Shown one piece after another: positions 20,062-38,190 of a DNA stretch of 45,468 nt. A model generated the notes under the pieces. That model made no database searches, was not told the origin of the DNA, and saw only the letters and a list, made by a program, of their open reading frames with translations. The number at the start of each line of letters is the position of its first letter. Positions within the stretch are counted from its first letter, which is position 1. Origin of the DNA: Chitinophagaceae bacterium. Its GTDB lineage: Bacteria; Bacteroidota; Bacteroidia; Chitinophagales; Chitinophagaceae. The stretch is taken from positions 1-45,468 of the forward strand of contig CANGFK010000003.1 of the NCBI GenBank assembly GCA_947452925.1. The letters run 5' to 3'. Both the position numbers and the translations under genes were made by a program.

Positions 20062-20292
20062 TCATCACCTGAATCAGGCAATAATCCACTTGAGTGACAG
20101 ATAAATTCACGTGAGTCACGTTTCGACTCACCTGAGTGAGAACCCGACTCACGTGAATTTATCTTTCCCCCACCTGAGTGAAAGTCTGACCCAACTGAGT
20201 GGAAACGTGACTCACGTGAATTTATTCTTCACTCAGGTGAGTCGAAACCTGACTCAGGTGGGTGGAACCCCGACTCAAGTGAGGAAATGACC
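20062..20292. repeat. Intergenic 21-bp array (array C, 11 units): GACTCANNTGAGTG plus 7-bp linker
   Basis: CANNTG cores start at 20066, 20087, 20108, 20129, 20150, 20171, 20192, 20213, 20234, 20255 and 20276, exactly 21 bp apart. Confidence 0.92.
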
Positions 20293-20415: not shown

Positions 20416-21528
20416 ATGTATAACGATGATTTTTTACAAAGCAAGTTATTAGAACGAAAAGAACAGAATGCTTTTAGAACTTTACGGCTGCCTGATGATA
20501 AGATTGATTTTTGCAGTAACGACTATCTCGGCATTGCCCGTTTAGGCGAAACTCTTTCCGATGCTTACTTACAACTTATAACTTACAACTCACAACCGTC
20601 TTCCGGTTCCACAGGCTCTCGCCTTCTTGCAGGAAACTATGCTTTGATTGAAGAAACAGAAAAACAAATAGCTAGCTTCCATCAAGCCGAAGCAGGACTA
20701 ATATTCAATTCTGGCTACGATGCAAACCTCGGATTACTGAGTTGTGTTCCTCAAAGAGGCGATACAATCATATACGATTTCCTTAGCCATGCCTCTATCA
20801 GAGATGGAATCAGATTATCTCAAGCGCAATCTTATGCTTTTCTCCACAATGATTTGAATGATTTGGAACGTAGATTGAAGGGTGCTACAGGAAACATTTT
20901 TGTGGTTACAGAATCGGTGTTTAGTATGGATGGCGATTATTGTCCTTTGTCCGAGATAGTTACCCTTTGCAGACAATATAACGCACATTTAATTCTTGAT
21001 GAAGCACACGCTACAGGCGTTGTTGGAAAAGGGGGAGAAGGATTGGCTCAACAGCTTCAGTTGCAAGACGACCTATTTGCGCGGGTACATACTTTCGGAA
21101 AAGCTTGTGGATGTCATGGTGCAGTTGTGTTGGGCAGTAATTCGTTAAGAGATTACCTCATCAATTTTGCACGTAGTTTCATCTATTCAACGGCCTTGCC
21201 TCCTGCTGCCATTAATGTTATAGCCAATAGTTACGCTTTATTTCCCAAGATGCACAAAGAGCGTGAACACCTCAATACATTAATTAATTATTTTCAATCA
21301 GCCACTATTGCTTATCCCAAACTTATTTCCACTACGCCCATTCAAGTGGTGGTAGTTGCAGGCAATACTGAAGTGAAACGGGTAGCAGATCTGTTGCAAA
21401 ATAATAGTCTGGATATTCGCCCCATACTCTATCCCACAGTTCCAAAAGGTAGTGAAAGGCTGAGGATTGTATTGCATAGTTTTAATACGCTGGAAGAAGT
21501 AAAGCTTTTGGTTGGTCTGCTAGCTTGA
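20416..21528 (+). CDS. bioF: 8-amino-7-oxononanoate synthase-like PLP enzyme (BioF family)
   Basis: DFCSNDYLGIARL, SSGSTGSRLLAGNYALIEETEKQIA, LILDEAHATGVVGKGGEGL, HTFGKACGCHGAVV. Confidence 0.82.
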   Translation: MYNDDFLQSKLLERKEQNAFRTLRLPDDKIDFCSNDYLGIARLGETLSDAYLQLITYNSQPSSGSTGSRLLAGNYALIEETEKQIASFHQAEAGLIFNSGYDANLGLLSCVPQRGDTIIYDFLSHASIRDGIRLSQAQSYAFLHNDLNDLERRLKGATGNIFVVTESVFSMDGDYCPLSEIVTLCRQYNAHLILDEAHATGVVGKGGEGLAQQLQLQDDLFARVHTFGKACGCHGAVVLGSNSLRDYLINFARSFIYSTALPPAAINVIANSYALFPKMHKEREHLNTLINYFQSATIAYPKLISTTPIQVVVVAGNTEVKRVADLLQNNSLDIRPILYPTVPKGSERLRIVLHSFNTLEEVKLLVGLLA

Positions 21529-21543
21529 GAAATGTAAATAAAC

Positions 21544-21578
21544 AAAAGAGGCTATTGCATGGTGCAATAGCCTCTTTT
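21544..21578. terminator. Bidirectional intrinsic terminator between convergent genes
   Basis: AAAAGAGGCTATTGCA-TGG-TGCAATAGCCTCTTTT, 16-bp perfect stem with A/T flanks. Confidence 0.9.
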
Positions 21579-21594
21579 CAGTTAAGTCTATTTC

Positions 21595-22827
21595 TTATTC
21601 CAGCGTCTTCAACGACTTTCTTATAATCTCCACGCACTCCAGAATTTGTTCTTTAGTGATAAGCAACGGTGGTGCAAAACGGATTTTATCTCCATGTGTT
21701 GGCTTTGCCAAAAGACCATTGTCGCGCAAGGCCAAACATAAATCCCAAGATGCATCCGGGTTCTCATGTTGTATCACTATCGCGTTTAATAAACCCTTTC
21801 CACGAACGATTCTAATCAATGGAGACTGTAGTTTCACTAGCTCTTCTCTCAATAAAATCCCCATTGCTTCAGCGTTTTCAGCCATCTTTTCATCTTTCAA
21901 TACTTTCAATGAAGCAATTGCTACGGCGCAAGCCAAGGGATTACCGCCATAAGTACTGCCGTGTTCTCCTGGCTTGATGGTAAGCATTATTTCGTCATTG
22001 GCAAGAATTGCTGCAACAGGCATGGTGCCGCCGCTCAATGCTTTACCGAGAATCAAGATGTCTGGCTTTACGTTTTCGTGGTCGCAAGCCAATACTTTAC
22101 CCGTTCTGCAGAGGCCTGTTTGTATTTCATCTGCAATGAAAAGGACATTGTATTTCGTGCACAGTTCGCGTACTTTGGTCAGGTAACCTTCGTCAGGAAT
22201 CACTACGCCTGCTTCTCCTTGAATGGGTTCTACCATAAATGCGGCTACATTAGAATCTTTCAATGCTTCTTCCAAAGCCACTGTGTCGTTGTAAGGCACG
22301 AGTGCAAACCCAGGCATGAATGGTCCGAAGTCTTTGTAACTGCTTGGGTCGGTAGATGAAGAAATTGCTGCTAGGGTACGTCCCCAGAAGTTGCCCTCTG
22401 CAAATATTACTTTAGCCTGATTCTCTGCTACCCCTTTGTGTTTGTATGCCCAGCGTCTTGCTAGTTTTATGGCAGTTTCGCCTCCCTCTACGCCCGTATT
22501 CATGGGTAGTACTTTGTCGAAACCAAAGAATTCGGTAATGTATTTTTCGTATTCGCCCAATATGTTGTTGTGAAAGGCACGGGAAGTAAGTGTTAAAGTC
22601 TGCGCTTGCTTAGTGAGTGCCTCAATGATTTTTGGATGGCAATGTCCCTGATTAACGGCAGAATAACCACTCAAAAAGTCATAGTATTGCTTACCATCAA
22701 CGTCAGTAAGGTAAACGCCTTTGCCTTCGGAAAGTACTACAGGCAATGGATGGTAGTTGTGAGCGCCAAATTTGTCTTCTAGTTCCAGATAATAATTGCT
22801 CTTGTCGGAGAGTGTATGTGTGTTCAT
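21595..22827 (-). CDS. rocD: Ornithine--oxo-acid transaminase
   Basis: [94 protein letters not shown]. Confidence 0.93.
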
Positions 22828-23145
22828 TGTTATAAATGTTAATGCACGCCTATGGTCATAGCTGATGGCTGATGAACCAATAGTGTTTTAATAATAAATA
22901 ATTGTCCTGAAAAAATTGTGTAAACAGGTGCTGAAAGACAGCTGGGAATAAGTAGGAATTACAACCCAATGGGATGATCGAGAAAGTCTAAATTTGAAAG
23001 AAGGAATACCATAACACCTGAATTGGGGCGCAAGATAAAGAATTTACAGTGATTAATTAAAAGTACAATACTTGGCATTCCGATCAATAATGAAAAATAA
23101 ATATTTCGATGCCAGTTTTCTATAATTTTTAATACAAGCATATTC

Positions 23146-23370
23146 TTATGGGATACACATGAATTAACATTAATTCATGCACACCCTTATAGGATACACG
23201 TGAATTAACATTAATTCATGTACACCCTTAAAGGATACACGTGTATGACTGCCAATATGTACATATCCTATAAGGATGCACGTGTGTGACTGCCAATATG
23301 TACACACCCTTATAGGATACACATGAATGAACATTAATTCATGTGTATCCTATAAGATTACTCGTGTATT
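23146..23370. repeat. Intergenic 41-bp tandem array (array D, about 5.5 units) with two alternating core types
   Basis: Units start at 23146, 23187, 23228, 23269, 23310 and 23351. Units 1, 2 and 5 share GAAT(T/G)AACATTAATTCATG; units 3 and 4 share TGACTGCCAATATGTACA. Confidence 0.92.
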
Positions 23371-23485
23371 AAACCTATTTAGGGCATTGCCAGCCACAAA
23401 CTGCCTCTTTTAGCAACTATTTCTACGGGGTTTATTAATTTGTTGAGGTTTGATGGAGAAATTGTATGGATATTTGTAGAACACT

Positions 23486-23589
23486 CGCCGTTGTTGTGTC
23501 TTCTTGACCAACAACTATACAGGGGAAATATAATTAATTAAATAATCGTTCTATTGCTTGTTGTTGGTGAGGAAGATACAATAACGGCG
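23486..23589 (+). repeat. Long inverted repeat / candidate RNA hairpin (30-nt arms, 44-nt loop)
   Basis: CGCCGTTGTTGTGTCTTCTTGACCAACAAC (23486-23515) pairs with GTTGTTGGTGAGGAAGATACAATAACGGCG (23560-23589): 29/30 positions pair if G.U is allowed. Confidence 0.75.
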
Positions 23590-23716
23590 GTGGAAGATCA
23601 AGAAAGGGGAAAAGAGAAACTTATATTTGCTTGAGAATATTTAATTAAAATCTCCATTGATTTATGCTGATGTTAATAACAGCAACGACAAAAGAAACAA
23701 TACTTAAATTAACTTT

Positions 23717-24883
23717 ATGCTTAAAACCCTTCTTACTTTCTTGATTTTATTGTCTCTAATCAAAATTTCATACGCACAAAATAAATCTGATAAAATTGTT
23801 TTTGTAGTTGACTCAATATACGTGCAGAATGACCCTGAAGAAGGAGATAATATCAATCAAACAGATGTTTCGGATTTAAAAGTGATAAAAAATAAAGACT
23901 CACTAAAAGCTTTAGGACTAGAAAAATTTGACGGTGTAACCTATATTTTCACAAAAGCTTACAGAGAAAGAAGCGAGCAGCAAAAACAAATTCCATCCAC
24001 AAAACAAATGATCAAAAACAATGGTGTGTTTGAGCTTAATGGAAATACTTACAATGGTAAATTCATTGATTATTACTACAGTGGGAAAAAGAAATCAGAA
24101 GGTACACTTAAAAATGGAGTGATAGATGGAGATATTATCATGTATTATCAAAACGGTAAAATTAAAATTAAAAGACATTACCATCCTGGCGGAGTTAAAG
24201 ACGGAAAAGAGGTATTGTACTTTGAGGATGGAACACCAATGCAACAAGGGGCATATGTAAATGGAAAAGAGGATGGGGTTTGGGAATCATATTTTCCTAA
24301 TGGGCAAATTAAAATGAGAACTAATTACAAGAACGGAGAACTTGTTGATACTGGTGCAATCTATTACTCGACAGGCAAGTTAAAACAAAAGGTACTAATG
24401 AAAAAGGGAAAAGCAGTTTCTGATCCGATACACGAAAAAATAGATAACCTCATAGCAAAAAGCAAGGATAGCAATGAAGAAGGAGATATGAAATCTGCAA
24501 TAAAGTATTGTTCTAAGGCAATAGAATTAGACAGTTCATATGCAGATGCTTATTTTTACATAGGGACAATGAAGTTGAATGATTTGAAATTTGATGATGC
24601 GATTACAGATTTTAATAAAGCCTTAGAATTAGAGCCCTTTATGGATAGAGCCTTGGCTAACAGGGCTGTTGCAAGAGTTAGAAAGTATCAATTTAGTAAT
24701 AGCAGAACAATATCTAAAAATAGTCAAGTTACTGTTTTAGCATCTAAAGACAAAGTTCCATTACCTGAAGAAGAACGGGAAAAGATATGTAGCGATTTAC
24801 AAAAGGTGGTTTCGTTAGGTATCAAATTAGGATTGATTCAAGAAATGATAAAAGATTATTGTACTGGGAATAGTAATAATTGA
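23717..24883 (+). CDS. YwqK-like/MORN-type repeat protein with C-terminal TPRs
   Basis: Signal peptide; repeats such as NGKIKIKRHYHPGGVKDGKEVLYFEDGTPMQQGAYVNGKEDGVWESYFPNGQIKMRTNYKNGEL; TPR AIKYCSKAIELDSSYADAYFYIGTMKLND. Confidence 0.8.
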   Translation: MLKTLLTFLILLSLIKISYAQNKSDKIVFVVDSIYVQNDPEEGDNINQTDVSDLKVIKNKDSLKALGLEKFDGVTYIFTKAYRERSEQQKQIPSTKQMIKNNGVFELNGNTYNGKFIDYYYSGKKKSEGTLKNGVIDGDIIMYYQNGKIKIKRHYHPGGVKDGKEVLYFEDGTPMQQGAYVNGKEDGVWESYFPNGQIKMRTNYKNGELVDTGAIYYSTGKLKQKVLMKKGKAVSDPIHEKIDNLIAKSKDSNEEGDMKSAIKYCSKAIELDSSYADAYFYIGTMKLNDLKFDDAITDFNKALELEPFMDRALANRAVARVRKYQFSNSRTISKNSQVTVLASKDKVPLPEEEREKICSDLQKVVSLGIKLGLIQEMIKDYCTGNSNN

Positions 24884-25047
24884 TTGAACTACCCTGCTCT
24901 CAGCTATTTCGCGTCAAACTTGCTACAATCTACAATGGCTAGTGCGTTTCGCGCGTTCATTCGCTAAGGTTATATCTACCTTATGTATGTCTTGGCCTAG
25001 TTCATGAATCTACAGATGCAAGATACATATCACCTACCCAAAATAAA

Positions 25048-25083
25048 AAAGCCCCTCATCAGTGTTACCTAATGAGGGGCTTT
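25048..25083 (-). terminator. Intrinsic terminator downstream of atpC
   Basis: AAAGCCCCTCAT ... ATGAGGGGCTTT stem; the minus-strand transcript ends in a U tract. Confidence 0.85.
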
Positions 25084-25101
25084 GTATAAAAGAGTAATAG
25101 C

Positions 25102-25356
25102 TTATTCTACAATTATAGCGCCTTCTACCAATACCGTTGCTTTGTTGTTAAGTACTTCTACAAAACCACTTTGAATGGTATAATTCTCGAAAGTAGATTT
25201 ATCTTTCAGAATCTTAAGGTTGCCCTTAGACAAAGCACTGACCAAGGGCGCATGCTTTTCTAATACTTCAAACAAACCATCGATTCCAGGAAGCTGTACA
25301 CCATATACAGACCCACTGAATATCTTTTTATCAGGTGTTAATATTTCTAACGTCAT
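25102..25356 (-). CDS. atpC: F1F0 ATP synthase epsilon subunit
   Basis: MTLEILTPDKKIFSGSVYGVQLPGIDGLFEVLEKHAPLVSALSKGNLKI; start placed at the internal Met. Confidence 0.93.
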   Translation of the reverse strand: MTLEILTPDKKIFSGSVYGVQLPGIDGLFEVLEKHAPLVSALSKGNLKILKDKSTFENYTIQSGFVEVLNNKATVLVEGAIIVE

Positions 25357-25388
25357 AATCTTATTACTTAAAATTAGCAACTAGCTAA

Positions 25389-25409
25389 TCCCCCTTTAGG
25401 GGACAAGGG
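25389..25409. repeat. CCCTTTAGGG-type dispersed repeat between atpD and atpC
   Basis: TCCCCCTTTAGGGGACAAGGG, related to the repeat in ftsW/murG (41075-41093, 41179-41197). Confidence 0.6.
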
Positions 25410-26930
<1,521 letters not shown>

Positions 26931-36545: not shown

Positions 36546-36549
36546 AACA

Positions 36550-36654
36550 GTTATGAGTTATGAATTATAAGTTATGAGTTTAAAGCAAAGAACTCATTCT
36601 TAATTCTTAAAAACTCATAATTCATAACTTATAACTCATAACTTATAATTAAAA
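36550..36654. repeat. Heptamer array with inverted halves (array H, 15 x 7 bp)
   Basis: GTTATGA GTTATGA ATTATAA GTTATGA GTTTAAA GCAAAGA ACTCATT CTTAATT CTTAAAA ACTCATA ATTCATA ACTTATA ACTCATA ACTTATA ATTAAAA. Confidence 0.85.
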
Positions 36655-37970: not shown

Positions 37971-37980
37971 GAAAGGGGCA

Positions 37981-38190
37981 TTTAAATCATCAGGAAAATG
38001 ATTTTAATGAACAGGAAAACAGTTTTAATGATGATTAAAATGATTTTAATGAACAGGAAAATAAATTTAATGATGATTAAAATAACTTTAATGTAGAGTA
38101 AAATCATTTTACTCATGATTAATACGAATTTACTCATGATTAAAACGAATTTAATCATAAGTAAAACGAATATAATGATGATTAAAATAG
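37981..38190. repeat. Intergenic 21-bp array inside the dcw operon (array E, exactly 10 units)
   Basis: Ten consecutive 21-mers of consensus WTTTAATSATGATTAAAAYGA (palindromic TTAATCATGATTAA plus 7-bp linker), filling most of the mraY-murD gap. Confidence 0.95.

Follow-up and report, generated by a model that had tools for sequence, protein, structure and literature searches.

Array D and its neighbours

The stretch of DNA analysed here (the window) is 45,468 nucleotides long and belongs to a Chitinophagaceae bacterium (genome G000). The tandem repeat under study, array D (23147..23355), is flanked by two genes that lie outside the system described below: a minus-strand gene on the left (21595..22827), probably coding for ornithine-oxo-acid aminotransferase (rocD; we take it to be this gene from its sequence rather than from a family search), and a plus-strand gene for a MORN/TPR-repeat protein on the right (23717..24883).

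Array D consists of five 41-bp units starting at 23147, 23188, 23229, 23270 and 23311. They are contiguous and arranged head-to-tail, with anchors at 23151, 23192, 23233, 23274 and 23315 and every step exactly 41 bp; TRF run on the window also returns a period of 41 at this position. The window has nine TRF rows with a score of at least 70, three of them at array D (scores 147-165), compared with two such rows altogether in 40 second-order Markov copies of the window, and a chance origin of array D was rejected on this basis.

Units 1, 2 and 5 carry core A (GAATTAACATTAATTC, with the variant GAATGAACATTAATTC in unit 5) and units 3 and 4 carry core B (TATGACTGCCAATA, with the variant TGTGACTGCCAATA in unit 4), giving the core order AABBA; in pairwise resemblance, unit 1 goes with unit 2 and unit 3 with unit 4. 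This is the arrangement that an earlier note on this DNA had described, and the cores indeed swap at a fixed 41-bp phase. Other details needed correction. The flanks, said to be conserved in all units, are less constant than that: units 1 and 5 have CACATG where the others read CACGTG, and the ends of unit 3 (CATATCCT) and unit 5 (GTGTATCCT) deviate. Perfect CACGTG and perfect TGTACA are each present in three of the five units, and the alternating 20/21-bp spacing of these hexamer palindromes holds for the B units (CACGTG at 23238, TGTACA at 23258, CACGTG at 23279, TGTACA at 23299) but not for the A unit that has both hexamers, where it is 22/19 (23197, 23219, 23238). The description of the units as palindromic fits the A units, with perfect 17-bp palindrome arms read from the sequence of unit 5, but is poor for the B units. 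A period of 41 bp corresponds to whole helical turns (4 x 10.25) while being off the multiples of 7 and 3, and the suspicion of a helical rather than a coding or heptamer rule was right in our judgement. Taken as a whole, the earlier observation is confirmed in part and its interpretation supported in part; the larger repeat around the array, the linked gene family and a 41/42 period common to arrays of unrelated sequence, all described below, are additions to it.

The window has further repeats. An intergenic array at 20125-20282 (period 21/63, CACSTGAGTG-like palindromes each 21 bp) is of the same helical-period class, and another intergenic array at 37980-38187 has period 21/42/63 and TTTAATGATGATTAAA-like units. 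Heptamer/14-mer arrays (AGTTATG, AACTCAT, CACTAAC) are found at 36549-36650 of the window and at L206:18459-18575.

Array D is the middle of a dispersed repeat with gene-bearing copies

Array D forms the middle of a dispersed repeat of ~560 bp (23055..23615), in which it is bordered by a left end and a right end. An element in a congener (G010:C130) matches this repeat with 87% identity over 563 bp and with 92% over the array alone. The left end (23055..23106), with matches also in genomes G003, G005, G006 and G010, corresponds to the distal part of the 5' leader of a ~320-aa gene in the gene-bearing copies. The right end (23424..23610) is a conserved stretch that includes an imperfect palindrome of ~110 bp (about 23482-23610). 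This palindrome is itself dispersed in the genus: together with the right-end neighbourhood it has 9 match rows in G000, 37 in G001 and 17 in G003, numbers in which the two strands of the palindrome may count twice. The array is enclosed by an outermost inverted repeat, with a left arm at 23128..23139 (plus strand) that pairs with a right arm at 23363..23373 (minus strand), as read from fold and sequence; the ends differ among copies and no target-site duplication was seen. The orthologous rocD upstream regions of five other genomes match the window up to about 23044 only and lack the element. At the orthologous site upstream of rocD in G006 (L057, G006:C41) there is an unrelated 42-bp array of 4.9 copies.

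Relatives of the element were identified at six positions in congeners (G010:C130 and G001:C190, C290, C321, C230 and C140) and at one in its own genome (G000:C212). The core order AABBA of the window recurs at G010:C130, G001:C290 and G001:C321, the order is AAABBA at G001:C190 and G001:C230, and alternating cores are present at G000:C212 (BABABA), G001:C226 and G002:C263, where the flanks differ. The pattern search for core order missed or doubled some units, and the orders of C130, C290, C190, C321 and C230 were also read from the sequences. Both core types thus occur in other arrays; across copies the core order is mostly kept while unit number and pattern vary, an intermediate outcome for the refuting condition that the earlier note had set (unit order and number identical across divergent strains).

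Cores A and B keep their 41-bp centre spacing even in arrays with other flanks; they can thus replace each other in phase and are more conserved than the flanks. As the arrays that share these cores differ in their flanks, the cores are not explained by plain duplication of a single array. An ordinary local duplication of one unit, with no further meaning, agrees with the resemblance of the units in pairs, but the same array, with its core order, is found again at other places and in other species, and arrays of other sequence have this period too. These recurrences already contradict this explanation, and we regard it as barely tenable.

The element at G010:C130 carries the ~320-aa gene, and array D is thus homologous to a gene-linked array. 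In the gene-bearing copies, the left end runs via a conserved leader into the start of the gene, which is oriented away from the array. Array D has the head-to-tail, contiguous units and the period of 41 or 42 that are typical of the gene-linked system. No homologue or remnant of the family gene was found within positions 21000-26000 of the window and array D is therefore called an orphan copy.

The linked gene encodes a family of basic proteins of ~320 amino acids

Eleven genomes of the genus have between 3 and 20 matches to the family each; the congeners G004 and G008 have no members. The family is sporadic in other genera of the Chitinophagaceae, and the contigs that match it are Chitinophagaceae MAGs. 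Save for the first few, family members were collected by protein search and not by their array. A plasmid- or phage-borne family was rejected: tblastn searches found no match on plasmids with a close member and none in phages with a distant member, and viral contigs had none either.

With a median pI of 9.0 the proteins are basic, and dN/dS values of 0.13-0.22 show purifying selection on the gene. Attempts to identify the protein gave nothing convincing: there is no significant match to Pfam, NCBIfam, PHROGs or PDB sequences. AlphaFold models of two members from different clades (pLDDT 83 and 88, pTM 0.47 and 0.53) agree in predicting an all-helical N-terminal part of ~215 residues, with helices that reach ~60 residues, and a C-terminal beta-sandwich; a recognisable DNA-binding fold is present in neither model. 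Foldseek returned weak jelly-roll/cupin similarities only for the beta-sandwich and no convincing match covering the helical region.

The family members at G010:C80 (L128) and G010:C130 (L077) differ in their N-terminal parts while their C-terminal ~90 residues are nearly identical, a mosaic that points to recombination between family copies. 7/14-mers akin to the AGTTATG-type arrays come after the stop codons of several family genes.

Gene-linked arrays keep their period and replace their sequence

Family gene and array are linked: an array of the 41/42-bp class lies upstream of 45 of the 52 family genes tested, a set with one truncated duplicate, and downstream of 2 of 53. The distinct full-length genes number 47, span several genera and go down to ~20% protein identity. 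For 46 of them the best lag in the range 15-70 is 41 or 42, and 45 have a lag match of at least 60%, with a period of exactly 41 in 20 cases and 42 in 25. Likewise, TRF reports a period of 41 or 42 (or 82/84/123/126) upstream of nearly all members, even where these belong to other genera or have 20-25% identity, and arrays of 31 or 52 bp were not found at any family gene. The choice between 41 and 42 follows the protein tree: it requires five changes, compared with ~15 in shuffles, and 0 of 500 shuffles had a number as low.

The letters of the units turn over: unit sequences are unrelated between most family genes. Array DNA matches in none of 730 protein pairs with less than 40% identity and in 3 of 24 pairs with 70-80% identity; for pairs above 80%, a bin that includes one duplicate pair, the count is 8 of 21. 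Two close paralogues of one genome, G081 (L144 with period 41, L153 with period 42), have unrelated array sequences. Dyad symmetry of the whole unit (p<0.05) is present in 21 of 45 arrays, with about two expected, and about half of the gene-linked arrays are without clear dyads. The distance between array and start codon ranges from 27 to 677 bp.

Coding repeats were rejected: a 41-bp period breaks the frame and only 2 of 20 arrays with this period are open throughout in any frame; for the 42-bp arrays the number is 16 of 25, which six frames and a 14-codon unit allow by chance.

The array could also be transcribed and act as a string of RNA hairpins. The region of array D does fold strongly in comparison with dinucleotide shuffles (z -9.6 as DNA, -8.9 as RNA), and about 40% of the gene-linked arrays have a z below -2. 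However, most gene-linked arrays fold little better than their shuffles (median z about -1.5), and hairpins as a universal feature were rejected; the Rfam covariance models have zero matches in the window, and a string of hairpins would work without a strict period of 41-42. We consider an RNA function very unlikely. No tRNA genes were found in the window.

Gene and array can share a block at different places

In two cases, gene and array form a block that is common to different places. The loci G003:C1 and G005:C28 share 1.7 kb at 92.7% identity in unrelated flanks; G000:C172 and G006:C126 share 3.2 kb at 96.7%, while the rocD region of these two genomes is only ~78% identical. These blocks are what would be expected from the main rival to a functional reading of the array, namely that array D is the relic of a recombining or mobile cassette, in which gene, leader, array and right end move jointly, the array is passive, its inherited period being maintained through unequal exchange, and orphans are copies that have lost the gene. 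The mosaic paralogues, with the C-terminus of G010:C130 in G010:C80, fit this too, as does the orphan G002:C263, beside whose array the last ~58 codons (3' end) of the gene survive as a remnant. Against it, such a remnant is absent from 11 of the 12 gene-less array regions tested, the window included, and neither transposase similarity nor target-site duplication was seen. Moreover, passive inheritance leaves unexplained why the 41/42 period persists after total change of the units, among proteins of ~20% identity, and the 21-bp arrays, which are the most frequent class in G000, are in no case linked to the gene in our set. A passive cassette would need unequal exchange alone to hold the period, and we regard it as less likely than not. 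A cassette does not exclude binding of a protein: a functional array may ride in it.

Arrays of related period are numerous in genomes with the family

In a 391-kb sample of G000, chosen by contig number with arrays disregarded, there are 25 arrays with periods of 21, 41, 42, 63, 82, 84 or 123. Over all samples (about 50-400 kb for most genomes, smaller for some congeners; focal loci were masked in genomes with the family if selected for arrays), genomes with the family have 38 arrays in 893 kb and genomes without it have one in 782 kb. The 38 are distributed over G000 (25), G033 (7), G216 (1), G081 (0) and eight other congeners (5 in 205 kb); the two family genes of G081 are accompanied by no unlinked array in 79 kb. 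The congeners without the family, G004 and G008, have no array in 121 kb. With small samples, non-independent genomes and uneven density, this is an association only.

Two of the gene-less arrays of G000 resemble gene-linked arrays, with identities of 83% and 87% along ~240 bp. One array, L202:3230-3792 (G000:C14), has 13.4 copies of 42 bp, making it the longest 41/42-bp array in the G000 sample; it is 83% like the gene-linked array of G000:C33.

Numerous arrays of unrelated sequence in ordinary intergenic regions, all of the same period classes, could also be a mutational by-product: a replication or repair process would duplicate stretches of 21 or 42 bp in tandem, the arrays would be functionless and the gene would be nearby for another reason. 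Consistent with this, the orientation of genes around unlinked arrays shows no bias beyond that of long intergenic regions generally, and the 42-bp array at the rocD upstream site of G006 is unrelated to array D. What a by-product does not explain is the presence of an array at nearly every family gene and nearly always upstream, the clade-specific choice between 41 and 42, and the fact that cores A and B are conserved and stay in phase. We regard it as improbable.

A proposed role for array D as a set of phased docking sites

That the period stays at 41-42 bp while the letters change, and that the family genes have no arrays of 31 or 52 bp, is most easily explained by a four-turn protein footprint on double-stranded DNA. 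The explanation that we prefer, tentatively and with slightly less than even confidence, is that array D represents a gene-less version of the array found upstream of the ~320-aa family genes and provides phased docking sites on double-stranded DNA for a protein oligomer, probably with an autoregulatory role. The linked protein itself is the candidate binder.

In this mechanism, the array would serve as a double-stranded DNA scaffold with sites at intervals of four helical turns (of two turns in 21-bp arrays at other places); an oligomer of the family protein, with one footprint of ~41-42 bp, would assemble on one face of the DNA. An array beside its own gene would act mainly in autoregulation, while arrays elsewhere would be orphan sites. 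The protein would hold the spacing and leave the unit sequence to drift, and units could be homogenised by unequal exchange within the array and by recombination between paralogues. Cores A and B would be two site variants for one slot. The wide range of distances between array and start codon means that the regulatory role need not be uniform. In favour of docking are the linkage of gene and array, the period that follows the protein tree while array DNA turns over, the fixed spacing of the cores, the excess of dyads, the basic and selectively constrained protein, the array density of genomes with the family and the two gene-less arrays that match gene-linked ones. Several observations speak against it: the models show no recognisable DNA-binding fold, about half of the gene-linked arrays are without clear dyads, G081 has no unlinked array in its sample, and similar proteins with unrelated arrays, even of other periods, are not what strict sequence recognition predicts. 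A wider version, a family of paralogues that reads array geometry (four-turn, elsewhere two-turn spacing) more than sequence, each copy with a freely drifting array and with many orphan arrays on the chromosome, is conceivable, but we would call it rather unlikely as it stands.

As a rule, repeat arrays are recognised through their sequence. In the present arrays it is the length of the repeat that is conserved and that tracks the protein tree. Should the protein read spacing, nature would offer an example of DNA recognition by geometry, replicated dozens of times. An uncharacterised gene family gains a testable partner, and the arrays account for a considerable part of the long intergenic regions of the genomes studied.

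Comparison with known systems

The association between this gene family and its arrays is apparently undescribed so far: no published account was found in open-licence PMC papers. Some known systems share single features with it. Like MITEs, the element is a dispersed non-coding repeat of ~560 bp with an imperfect outer inverted repeat; unlike in MITEs, the homology of its gene-bearing copies continues through a conserved leader and the complete gene. The ends are variable and no target-site duplication was found. CRISPR arrays are also regular repeats adjoining a gene, but the units here are contiguous, both cores recur, there are no unique spacers and the linked genes scanned include no Cas-like protein. 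REP/BIME elements are likewise short intergenic palindromes in many copies; the arrays differ from them in their strict tandem 41-bp order, in a sequence that varies by locus and in that no RAYT transposase was seen. Of the tags GTAG and CGTC, which the title of PMC3733652 names, neither is present in 23140-23360, nor is its complement, as checked by eye.

Closer in architecture are systems with a DNA-binding protein. The centromeres of plasmids (parC/ParR, parS/ParB) are phased arrays beside the gene of their own binder, which acts with an NTPase partner. The arrays described here share the position beside the gene of the proposed binder and the whole-turn spacing, but there are many of them per genome, the folds of ParR and ParB are unmatched and a conserved NTPase partner was not seen beside the family gene among the neighbours scanned. 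The neighbours of 27 arrays of G000 have no family in common. Iterons of plasmid origins are ~17-22 bp long and their gene encodes the Rep initiator, which binds the tandem iterons and regulates its own expression. Here, the units have 41-42 bp, the many copies are chromosomal and plasmid records have no match; the linked family has no match to a Rep model, and the neighbours of array D, rocD-like and MORN/TPR, include no replication initiator. What the arrays have in common with iterons is the tandem repetition with near-integral helical spacing, the position upstream of a single gene and the proposed binding by that gene's own product.
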